Source of the DNA: Minisyncoccota bacterium
GTDB lineage: Bacteria; Patescibacteriota; Patescibacteriia; Patescibacteriales; UBA12465
DNA length: 32,832 bases
Assembly: GCA_021734405.1 (NCBI GenBank)
Contig: JAIPJA010000008.1
Location: 1-32,832 of the forward strand
Reading direction: 5' to 3'
In this document: positions 30,303 through 32,832 of the stretch, piece by piece
How the letters are laid out: every line of letters starts with the position of its first letter
Position numbering within the stretch: position 1 is the stretch's first letter
The notes under the pieces: generated by a model
Seen by the model: only the letters and a program-made list of their open reading frames with translations
Database searches by the model: none
What the model was told of the DNA's origin: nothing
Program-made: the position numbers and the translations under genes

Positions 30303-30812
30303 TTATAAAAAATTTATTTGAGTGGGTTTATCCTTCTTGTAAATTTCTCTTAAAATCTTTACCACCTCAACTATCACAATTATAAAGGCTGGCAAAATAA
30401 TCATTAAAAAATTACCTATATAAGTTTTAGCTAACATTATTAAATAGCCAAGCCAAGGAATAATTAAAACAACCTTGCCAATTACTAATCTAGGCAAAAC
30501 CAGCTCTCTATCTGCTAATTGATTAGCATCTCCTTTAGTAGTATAAACATTACCACCGATGTCTATTATTCTATGTGTTATAACATCTATATTATCAACT
30601 TTTTCTCCATAATAAGAAATAATATCACCTATCTTATAACCTGCCTGTTTTTGAACCATAATTATACTACCTTTTTCTATTTCCGGTGTCATGGAACTAG
30701 AAACATTTGTAAAACAACGCACTTTGCCAAAAAAATTAATAGAAGCAAAAATAACAATAAACAAAAGGGCTAAGTAGCTATAAATAAATATTTTATAAAT
30801 TTTTTTTAACAT
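30303..30812 (-). CDS. SipW-type signal peptidase I (second copy)
   Basis: A 169-aa S26B-family peptidase with N- and C-terminal membrane helices. The nucleophile is in NVSSSMTPEIEKGSI, the general base His (not Lys) in DVITHRIIDIG, and the downstream box is TTKGDANQLADREL. The Ser/His form is that of SipW, archaeal and ER enzymes. SipW cleaves special substrates such as TasA. It is the last gene of the TasA-like cluster, 4 nt after the secreted unknown. Two copies in one cluster may divide the substrates. Confidence 0.9.
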   Translation of the reverse strand: MLKKIYKIFIYSYLALLFIVIFASINFFGKVRCFTNVSSSMTPEIEKGSIIMVQKQAGYKIGDIISYYGEKVDNIDVITHRIIDIGGNVYTTKGDANQLADRELVLPRLVIGKVVLIIPWLGYLIMLAKTYIGNFLMIILPAFIIVIVEVVKILREIYKKDKPTQINFL

Positions 30813-30816
30813 ATTT

Positions 30817-31398
30817 TTACCACTCTGTGGTAGATATTATATTGTTTAATTTTCTTTCAGCAAAAATACCGCCTGATTCAGAAGGGTTGTCTCTATAACT
30901 TCTGACATAAAAATCAAAATTGCAAGATTTGTTTTGTAATTCTACTCCACCCTCATTAAGACCAACTAAAAATATGAAACTTTCTGGAGAACCATAAATC
31001 ATGTCTGAGCTAATAGAGAATTCTATCAACGGTCCTCTATATTGATTTCTCAATTCTCTATTTAAAACTTCTAAATATAAGCTACTGCACAAATAATCAT
31101 CACCACCCCTCTTTATAGTTCTTATATTATATTTAAACTCTCTTTCTGTCGAACTTTCAATCTTAAGAGCCTCTACGTCAAATCCGTAAGGCAAGGCTCC
31201 AGTAATATAAAAAAGATTATTGATATCATAGTTATTAAAAGAAGCCTTAGTCTTAAAATCTAAAGAAACTGCGGAAAAAAAATTCTCTTTAACTATCCTC
31301 TCAGCAAAAATATCAGCGTCGGTATACTGACTGTTAATTAAAAAGATATACAAAAAAATAGAAATCAAGCATATTTTTTTAACTACTTTTCTTAGCAT
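30817..31398 (-). CDS. Secreted protein of the SipW/TasA-like cluster, unknown
   Basis: A 193-aa protein with a basic N-terminus and a hydrophobic signal segment (about 8-23), then ADIFAERIVKENFFSAVSLDF, which loosely recalls the start of TasA/camelysin mature chains. The rest is predicted beta-rich, with two cysteines (CSSLYLEV and KSCNFDF). It lies between two SipW-type peptidase genes, overlapping the first by 20 nt. It is likely a minor surface or fibre component processed by one of them. No named family is recognised. Confidence 0.65.
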   Translation of the reverse strand: MLRKVVKKICLISIFLYIFLINSQYTDADIFAERIVKENFFSAVSLDFKTKASFNNYDINNLFYITGALPYGFDVEALKIESSTEREFKYNIRTIKRGGDDYLCSSLYLEVLNRELRNQYRGPLIEFSISSDMIYGSPESFIFLVGLNEGGVELQNKSCNFDFYVRSYRDNPSESGGIFAERKLNNIISTTEW

Positions 31399-31879
31399 TT
31401 TTTATTTTTACAAGCTCATCTAATACATATATAAAAGCTGGGATAATGAGCAAAATAATTAAACCATTTAAAGTCTTAGCAAAAGACAAAAGATAACCTA
31501 AACGAGGAACAACTAAAATAGCCTTGCCCATAATTTGCTCTTTTACAATATGATCTTCGTCTCCGGTTTTATTAGCATCTCCTTTAGTAAAATATTTTTT
31601 TTCTCCACTTTTATCTATTTCTTGGATTCTGTGAGTCACAACTCTTCCTGAGTTATTGGAAAAAGTAACAACATCATTTATTAAATAGTCTTTTTGCTGT
31701 TTTATTAAAATCACATCTCCAGTCATAATAGCCGGCTCCATAGATCCTGACTGAACTAAAAATGTTTTATAACCTTTAATTATATTAAAATTAGAATTAA
31801 TAACATATATAGCTAAAAGTGTTAAAACGGCTAAAACAGCCCACTTTAAAAGTGATAAAATAAATCTTAAAATATTCAT
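31379..31879 (-). CDS. SipW-type signal peptidase I (first copy)
   Basis: A 166-aa S26B peptidase with membrane helices at both ends. The nucleophile is Ser in FLVQSGSMEPAIMTGDVIL, the base is His in RVVTHRIQEID, followed by YFTKGDANKTGDED. It is expected to process the TasA-like protein encoded just upstream. A terminator between the two genes would keep peptidase levels below substrate. AGGAGAG in its leader is part of that terminator stem, so it is probably not a functional SD. Confidence 0.9.
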   Translation of the reverse strand: MNILRFILSLLKWAVLAVLTLLAIYVINSNFNIIKGYKTFLVQSGSMEPAIMTGDVILIKQQKDYLINDVVTFSNNSGRVVTHRIQEIDKSGEKKYFTKGDANKTGDEDHIVKEQIMGKAILVVPRLGYLLSFAKTLNGLIILLIIPAFIYVLDELVKIKNAKKSS

Positions 31880-31885
31880 AACAAC

Positions 31886-31917
31886 AAAAAGCAGGAGAGT
31901 TTTATAGCTCTCCTGCT
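31886..31917 (-). terminator. Terminator between tasA-like and sipW-like genes
   Basis: A 10-bp G+C-rich stem (AGCAGGAGAG/CTCTCCTGCT, 8-nt loop) with a T5 run on the minus strand, just after the TasA-like stop codon. Partial read-through would give abundant matrix protein and little peptidase. Confidence 0.85.
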
Positions 31918-31926
31918 ACTTACATA

Positions 31927-32553
31927 TTATATATTACTTGGATATTCTCCTTCAATAAGCTGTATTAACCTAAAATTAACATCGAACTGAACACTATCAC
32001 TTTGAACTTCATTTCCATAAGAGCTTTGATCTGCATTCCAATACACAGTCACTTCTCTTTCTTCATTTGGTTGAAGTACAATTGATTCTAAATTATACCA
32101 ATCTTGACCAATTTTAGTTTGATCAACAGTGGCCAAGGTTGATTCAACCATGTCAGTGCCATCCAAACTAACCTTTAAAGTTATTGCGTCTCCTAAATTT
32201 CCTTCTTTATCAGGAGCTTCACAATTTGGGTCAGCTACTTTTTCTTGGTCATTGCAACCATTTTCTTCATTAATAACATTTTGTAGTCTTACAAACAATC
32301 TTCCAGGTAATGATCCGGTGTTTTTAATAGTCCAGGTTTTAGTTCCACCAATATTACCAGTGGCCCCCATATTTTCAATAATAAAAGGTTCTAGTTTGTT
32401 GCCGTTAGCAGCAACATCTAAATCCAAAGTTCCTGAGATGAATCGGTTAGCGTTAGTTGTTCTGGTGGCGGTAAAGTAAGCATAGGTCCCAGCAATTGCC
32501 CCAATAACAACAATTGCTATAAGGATACTGCTATAAAAAACTTTCTTATTCAT
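31927..32553 (-). CDS. TasA/camelysin-like secreted protein (SipW-type signal peptide)
   Basis: A 208-aa protein. Its signal peptide (1-24) runs into AGTYAYFTATRTTNANRFISGTLDLDV, shortened here as AYFTATRT and GTLDLDV, the pattern of SipW-processed TasA/camelysin proteins. The mature domain is beta-rich with IKNTGSLPGRLFVRL, as in that family, and has two cysteines (GCND, NCEAP). TasA forms biofilm fibres in Bacillus; camelysin is a surface protease. A fibre or surface-coat role is inferred. The leader has four AGGAGG motifs, the nearest 14 nt before the ATG, unlike other genes here. Two SipW-type peptidases follow. Confidence 0.88.
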   Translation of the reverse strand: MNKKVFYSSILIAIVVIGAIAGTYAYFTATRTTNANRFISGTLDLDVAANGNKLEPFIIENMGATGNIGGTKTWTIKNTGSLPGRLFVRLQNVINEENGCNDQEKVADPNCEAPDKEGNLGDAITLKVSLDGTDMVESTLATVDQTKIGQDWYNLESIVLQPNEEREVTVYWNADQSSYGNEVQSDSVQFDVNFRLIQLIEGEYPSNI

Positions 32554-32565
32554 ATCTTTATGTTG

Positions 32566-32626
32566 TTCCTCCTTGTTAATTTCTAAAATTCCTCCTTATT
32601 TCTCCTCCTTTTATTATCTCCTCCTT
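32566..32626 (-). promoter_or_regulatory. Four AGGAGG (Shine-Dalgarno) motifs in the tasA-like leader
   Basis: On the minus strand AGGAGG occurs at 32625-32620, 32609-32604, 32596-32591 and 32573-32568, each inside a purine-rich AAGGAGGA context. The last lies 14 nt from the ATG, farther than the usual 5-9. They may act as ribosome standby or loading sites, or as a protein- or RNA-binding array. Confidence 0.8.
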
Positions 32627-32709
32627 TTTTGATATAAATTATTCAATTGTACACTGTTGCATAGTTAAAATAAATATTAAATAATTAAAAGAGTTCCGCA
32701 ATTTCCGTT

Positions 32710-32737
32710 TTGAATTGCAACTTTTATTCGCTAGAAT
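32710..32737 (+). promoter_or_regulatory. Probable promoter of the transposase gene
   Basis: TTGAAT (32710-32715), a 16-nt spacer and TAGAAT (32732-32737). The perfect hairpin TTTTATTC-GCTA-GAATAAAA (32722-32741) overlaps the -10. Bases 32691-32720 may hold the left inverted repeat of the element, which cannot be checked without its right end. Confidence 0.5.
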
Positions 32738-32745
32738 AAAAGCAT

Positions 32746-32832
32746 ATGAAAAAAGAAGAAAACAAACACAAAGTAAAGAGTAAAGGTCGAAAATATAAAC
32801 ATATAGATCAGTTTGAAAGAGATAGAATTGAA
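32746..32832 (+). CDS. IS30-family transposase, N-terminal fragment (runs off window)
   Basis: The last 29 codons of the window are open. After a Lys-rich start (MKKEENKHKVKSKG) comes RKYKHIDQFERDRIE, which matches the beginning of IS30-type transposases (YKHLTxxERxxIE) just before their helix-turn-helix. The catalytic DDE domain lies beyond the window. It is divergent from the tasA-like gene and about 190 nt from it. With 29 residues the family call is provisional. Confidence 0.6.
   Translation, partial: MKKEENKHKVKSKGRKYKHIDQFERDRIE

Follow-up and report, generated by a model that had tools for sequence, protein, structure and literature searches.

The window, by which we mean the whole stretch of 32,832 nucleotides that was analysed, is one contig (C5) of a Patescibacterium genome of 1.01 Mb in 51 contigs. 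It carries a gene for a predicted exported protein, followed by two genes for SipW-like signal peptidases (Table 1). The protein scored 23.3 bits against PF12389 (Peptidase_M73; cut-off 22.5) and 24.6 bits against TIGR04088 (cut-off 19). With both profiles over the cut-off and two TIGR02228 peptidases adjoining, we assign it to the SipW-dependent TasA/camelysin-like proteins. The ATG of the gene is credible because the orthologues start with MNKKV at the same place. Two alternative starts, an AUA 6 nt past the fourth Shine-Dalgarno (SD) copy of the leader and an in-frame AUU upstream, were rejected as rare start codons, the orthologues backing the ATG. The presence of CUCUCCUGC in an arm of the terminator-like hairpin prompted us to consider an hbs-like pairing between 5' and 3' UTR, which was rejected because the arm belongs to its own hairpin and no further support was found. 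The genome also encodes the 5'-3' exonuclease RNase J (TIGR00649, 554 bits; cut-off 400). On the minus strand the window further contains a tmRNA gene (857-1244) and a tRNA gene (753-836); a 66-aa ORF at 1040-1240 sits inside the tmRNA and is therefore not a protein gene.

Table 1. Features of the TasA-like gene cluster, its leader and the adjoining element, in window coordinates.
Feature	Position	Strand	Description
Second SipW-like signal peptidase I, same gene cluster	30303..30812	-	TIGR02228 80.1 bits (cut-off 51.85)
SipW-like signal peptidase I	31379..31879	-	TIGR02228 103.8 bits (cut-off 51.85); NF046067 112 bits, under the cut-off of 190
Terminator-like hairpin	31890..31917	-	AGCAGGAGAGCTATAAAACTCTCCTGCT, 10 pairs, then a T-rich tail; between the TasA-like and SipW-like genes
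TasA/camelysin-like exported protein, predicted	31927..32553	-	208 aa, with a SipW-dependent signal peptide; no further copy in the genome
SD copy 4	32568..32574	-	AAGGAGGAACAACATAAAGAT-ATG; GGAGG-to-ATG 14 nt; -11.2 kcal/mol; AGGAGG at 32568-32573, AAGGAGG starts at 32574 (read downward)
SD copy 3	32591..32597	-	AAGGAGGAATTTTAG; 44 nt before ATG; -11.1 kcal/mol; AGGAGG at 32591-32596, AAGGAGG starts at 32597 (read downward)
SD copy 2	32604..32610	-	AAAAGGAGGAGAAAT; 57 nt before ATG; -12.9 kcal/mol; near-duplicate of copy 1; AGGAGG at 32604-32609, AAGGAGG starts at 32610 (read downward)
SD copy 1	32620..32626	-	AAGGAGG within AAAAAAGGAGGAGATAAT; 73 nt before ATG; -14.3 kcal/mol against own anti-SD; AGGAGG at 32620-32625, AAGGAGG starts at 32626 (read downward)
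End of multi-copy, presumably mobile element	32697..32832	+	about 136 bases recur at or near six other places of the genome

The leader of the TasA-like gene, AATTTATATCAAAAAAGGAGGAGATAATAAAAGGAGGAGAAATAAGGAGGAATTTTAGAAATTAACAAGGAGGAACAACATAAAGAT-ATG, contains four copies of AAGGAGG within 59 nt on the minus strand. An earlier sequence-only reading had pointed to four AGGAGG motifs in about 60 nt before this gene. All four were located, and their grouping was never matched by shuffles: 200 dinucleotide shuffles of the window gave at most 2 AGGAGG in 60 nt, and when the leader alone was shuffled 5000 times the count did not exceed three for AGGAGG or two for AAGGAGG. The total of AGGAGG in the window is 12, against 10.8 expected by chance. 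The array is real and its clustering goes beyond chance. Tandem Repeats Finder reported a tandem repeat of period 16 (94% match) for copies 1 and 2, and a looser repeat spanning copies 1-3, which points to local duplication. The centre-to-centre distances of the copies are 16, 13 and 23 nt, and a search of the same genome gave no second copy of the array.

Upstream, the boundary of the multi-copy element lies 70 nt from SD copy 1, and the contig ends inside the element. At least seven copies are present in the genome, mostly at contig ends, with the terminal sequence CGCAATTTCCGTTTTGAATTGCAACTTTTATTCGCTAGAATAAAAG followed by the ORF start MKKEENKHKVKSKGRKYKHIDQFERDRIE. An IS30 identity was considered but not supported, as the sole HTH_38 match of the genome is a different gene. 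The 70 nt that separate copy 1 from the element gave no score for a sigma-70-like promoter; the element may have displaced the original promoter of the TasA-like gene.

The 16S rRNA of the same genome ends in GGATCACCTCCTTTC and keeps the canonical anti-SD CACCUCCUUU, including CCUCC. All four copies can pair with this 3' end over 7-8 bp, at -11 to -14 kcal/mol. Judged from the sequence, no ATG, GTG or TTG lies in range downstream of copies 1-3. The first 117 nt have a predicted structure of -4 kcal/mol with no excess over shuffles (z 0.19). Copy 1 is unpaired with a probability of 0.93-0.95 in all predicted folds containing it, and the full-length predicted fold shows partial pairing for copies 2-4 and for the AUG (0.32-0.52 unpaired). 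Across 32544-32640 a weak long-range pairing joins AUUUAUAUC, at the 5' end of the leader, with GAUAUGAAU, which lies over the start codon, so that the four SDs are looped out. The 16S rRNA gene itself (contig C43, 1437-2120) gave matches in two parts about 680 nt apart, and an insertion is therefore probably present.

SD usage was assessed in a sample of 281 kb (28% of the genome), in which a simple longest-ORF rule yielded 258 ORFs of 100 aa or more, together with whole-genome pattern searches. A match of at least 6 nt preceded 15 of the 258 sampled genes (5.8%), about 94% being without one; control bands gave 0 such matches at -24 to -40 and 4 at -44 to -60, some of which are the array of the TasA leader itself. 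The 4-nt SD core was present at -4 to -20 in 11% of the sampled genes, compared with 7% and 9% in two upstream control bands. The SDs of at least 6 nt belonged to 13 of 139 first or isolated genes and to 2 of 119 operon-internal genes (Fisher p = 0.014, one test with a simple operon rule). In most of these genes the match lay 4-8 nt from the ATG, and several matches were 7-8 nt long. Since other genes here use AAGGAGG at 4-8 nt, the motif is evidently recognised by the ribosome. The final spacing of 14 nt in the TasA leader, which the sequence-only reading had called out of the ordinary, is indeed unusual beside the 4-8 nt of most other strong SDs in this genome. An SD (AAAGGAAGGTG before ATG) was also found at an rpsU-like gene (bS21-like; Pfam 26.4 bits, just under the cut-off of 27). 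Within the window the DUF5320 ORF has the SD GAGGTGAT and a doubtful ORF at 371-685 has a weak AAAGGA ahead of it; no SD of the AAGGAGG kind was found for the other window genes. On these counts SDs are few in this genome but a minority of them looks functional, a situation comparable to that of organisms published as SD-scarce. The contrast drawn earlier within the window holds. Genome-wide, SDs are scarce, yet with 15 of 258 sampled genes the array has more than one companion.

Several SD-poor lineages offer a comparison. Genomes of several candidate phyla, among them Absconditabacteria, Wolfebacteria and Campbellbacteria, are listed as SD-scarce and without a conserved CCUCC (PMC10783764), in contrast to the present genome, which retains CCUCC; the threshold of 5.5% in that work is a binding-based measure, whereas our 5.8% counts matches of 6 nt or more in 28% of the genome. 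In Flavobacteriales bS21, bS18 and bS6 sequester the 16S tail, which keeps the ribosomes from recognising SDs (PMC9976891). The TasA-like gene resembles flavobacterial rpsU in having a strong SD in an SD-poor lineage, and the rpsU-like gene here likewise has one; unlike in that group, at least a dozen other genes here have SD matches, mostly well spaced. The proposal that SDs are reserved for special genes in the manner of Bacteroidetes was not borne out: a minority class, mostly of first or isolated genes, uses ordinary AAGGAGG SDs at normal spacing.

Two further observations concern leaders and SDs elsewhere in the genome. A recurrent leader with the 13-mer AAAGATCTTTACA was seen in L034 (minus strand, 5469; plus strand, 175) and L035 (minus strand, 9497 and 5238), and also beside copies of the multi-copy element in L057 and L059. 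In three cases it follows a hairpin-looking stretch containing G+C, e.g. GCCTGTCGGGAAGTATAGGC. One possibility is that the genome carries it as a repeated leader at the RNA level or as a regulatory element. Isolated genes also occur amid Patescibacteria housekeeping genes (L033, 180-737; L034, 190-1170, 4726-5436 and 17236-17814; L035, 3989-4519; L037, 9951-10796). Most of them have strong AAGGAGG or AAAGGAG SDs, several encode Bacteroidetes-like signal peptides (...FAQ, ...HSQ), and none gave a Pfam match; they could have been acquired horizontally.

Conservation was assessed by a profile search of species genomes, in which the TasA-like proteins were 46-76% identical. The array was found in none of the 19 related loci; absence of the repeated motif in orthologues is what the sequence-only reading had named as a refutation. 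The family therefore does not need the array, and a conserved regulatory device for the TasA-like family is excluded on the same ground. Several of these loci have a TTGACA-type sequence and then an SD-less leader. Two relatives have one far-upstream SD-like site, namely an AGGAG in L062, probably before the transcript start, and an AAGGAGG about 115 nt upstream in L069.

For comparable arrays, triple AAGGAGG was searched for in 381 genomes of the class and 380 of the phylum, or 728 distinct genomes after removal of 33 present in both. Apart from L081, no other case of three AAGGAGG in the non-coding leader of an ORF was found in these roughly 728 genomes. L081 was rejected, as its copies 1 and 2 lie inside tgt and the third is the SD of a 73-aa ORF. 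L083 is non-coding with no ORF after the motifs, L086 is an intergenic repeat, and the remaining triple matches fall in coding sequence or simple repeats. L083 (minus strand, about 1383-1583; Patescibacterium G154) is part of a region with at least six AAGGAGG in about 1 kb without a notable ORF, upstream of a probable ABC-transporter gene. When a double SD before an ATG was sought in 40 relatives, three of the four other places were coding and L225 was ambiguous. Among the viral matches listed, contig L177 (7141-7230) has, immediately ahead of a 100-aa ORF, three AAGGAGG units in tandem, each 24-26 nt long, with the last unit at normal SD spacing; such SD duplications therefore do occur. Across the genomes compared, the array is private to one genome and lineage-specific, which leaves room for a species-private regulatory device.

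The closest known counterpart is the STAB-SD. According to the work of Agaisse and Lereclus (1996) and Mathy et al. (2007), as reviewed in PMC4113751, the STAB-SD of Bacillus thuringiensis cry3A binds the 30S subunit, starts no translation and blocks RNase J1; binding of 30S without translation can stabilise mRNAs (PMC7509114). The TasA leader has the corresponding sequence properties, i.e. complementarity to the 16S 3' end, no start codon in range of copies 1-3 and an RNase J gene in the genome. Like cry3A, it has a 5'-UTR site that is complementary to the anti-SD and set apart from the start codon, and a presumably abundant protein as its product. It differs in having four copies instead of one, all at most 73 nt from the start codon, and in belonging to an SD-scarce Patescibacterium, and stabilisation here is a proposal by analogy. 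The polypurine 5' stabiliser of phage SP82 in B. subtilis, where mutation of the ribosome-binding site shortened the mRNA half-life (Hue et al., 1995, as cited in PMC7509114), is alike in its purine-rich, SD-like leader; in that account it is not described as an array, and it belongs to a phage mRNA in a Firmicute. With the B. subtilis tapA-sipW-tasA operon the locus shares the SipW-type signal peptide and the adjoining SipW-like peptidase, but the genes are arranged in another order and resemble each other remotely (23-25 bits).

We tentatively favour, with somewhat less than even confidence, the reading that the array consists of lineage-specific sites for anti-SD pairing in an open leader, on which 30S subunits would land as on a STAB-SD. 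Most likely the array arose as a single strong SD was duplicated locally in tandem. Subunits would dock at copies 1-3, none of which has a usable start codon at the normal distance. There they would keep RNase J from attacking the 5' part of the mRNA, and through rebinding or sliding they would supply the true start codon past copy 4. The result would be a longer lifetime and more translation of the mRNA for an abundant exported TasA-like protein. The 30S footprint is about 30 nt. Because the spacings of the copies are smaller than this, at most two or three subunits could be bound at once, and the gain would lie in multivalent, repeated capture rather than in a queue of four. We infer the binding of 30S in the cell, the protection, the abundance of the protein and a transcript start upstream of copy 1. 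The reading is supported by the complementarity to the genome's own 16S, the non-chance cluster, the tandem units 1-2, the open copy 1, the RNase J gene and the atypical spacing of 14 nt. Against it stand the absence of the array from the relatives, the lack of a scored promoter between copy 1 and the element, and the partial pairing of copies 2-4 and the AUG. The special use of anti-SD pairing on a surface-protein gene, suggested by the sequence-only reading, keeps the pairing with the cell's own 16S and the predicted SipW-type export, but not the standing of a conserved family device.

The main rival is that slippage duplicated a normal single SD in an A- and purine-rich leader, neutrally or nearly so, and that only one copy matters, or none. 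We regard it as a real possibility, and it explains the sequence almost as well as capture of 30S subunits does. It draws on the 94% repeat of units 1 and 2, on the restriction of the array to one genome, on the many sampled genes that lack a 6-nt match in a genome where most genes start without an SD, and on the precedent of the viral tandem units. The spacers have diverged with the four AAGGAGG cores intact, which hints at selection, weakly given the few bases involved.

Translational regulation would have AUUUAUAUC pair with GAUAUGAAU in the modelled fold, closing the AUG and looping out the four SDs, with the 30S subunit, a protein or an sRNA as the switch. The minimum-energy fold does pair both segments around the loop, and wherever a fold takes in the first copy, the probability that the AUG is unpaired is only 0.34-0.5. 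We nevertheless consider this improbable: the fold is no better than shuffles, the AUG is similarly closed (0.41) after removal of the 5' segment, and the leader has no Rfam family match. Even less probable is that the repeats act in the DNA, as binding sites of a transcription factor, and not in the RNA. The occurrence of one 7-8-mer as direct repeats ahead of a single gene would fit such sites, but the spacings do not suit one helical face, the motif is the exact complement of the anti-SD, and single copies occupy the SD positions of other genes. An assembly error beside the multi-copy element, in which the contig ends 70 nt upstream, is the least credible explanation, as the spacers differ among the four units, the units lie in unique sequence outside the element and the genome has no second array.

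Among these explanations, a lineage-specific site of 30S capture thus competes chiefly with neutral duplication. We think it rather unlikely that the multivalent array is a dedicated device for 30S capture and mRNA protection, by which one exported protein is favoured for ribosomes in a genome otherwise mostly SD-independent. The array is a striking species-private feature, most like a multi-copy STAB-SD, and is neither a conserved system nor evidence for a special use of SDs in the style of Bacteroidia. If neutral, it would indicate that strong SDs can expand by slippage without a conserved function. Should it prove functional, it would represent a natural four-fold array of SDs from outside the Firmicutes, found in a streamlined genome in which other SDs are rare, and would offer a clean test of whether distant SD copies protect the mRNA, concentrate 30S subunits or have no effect.
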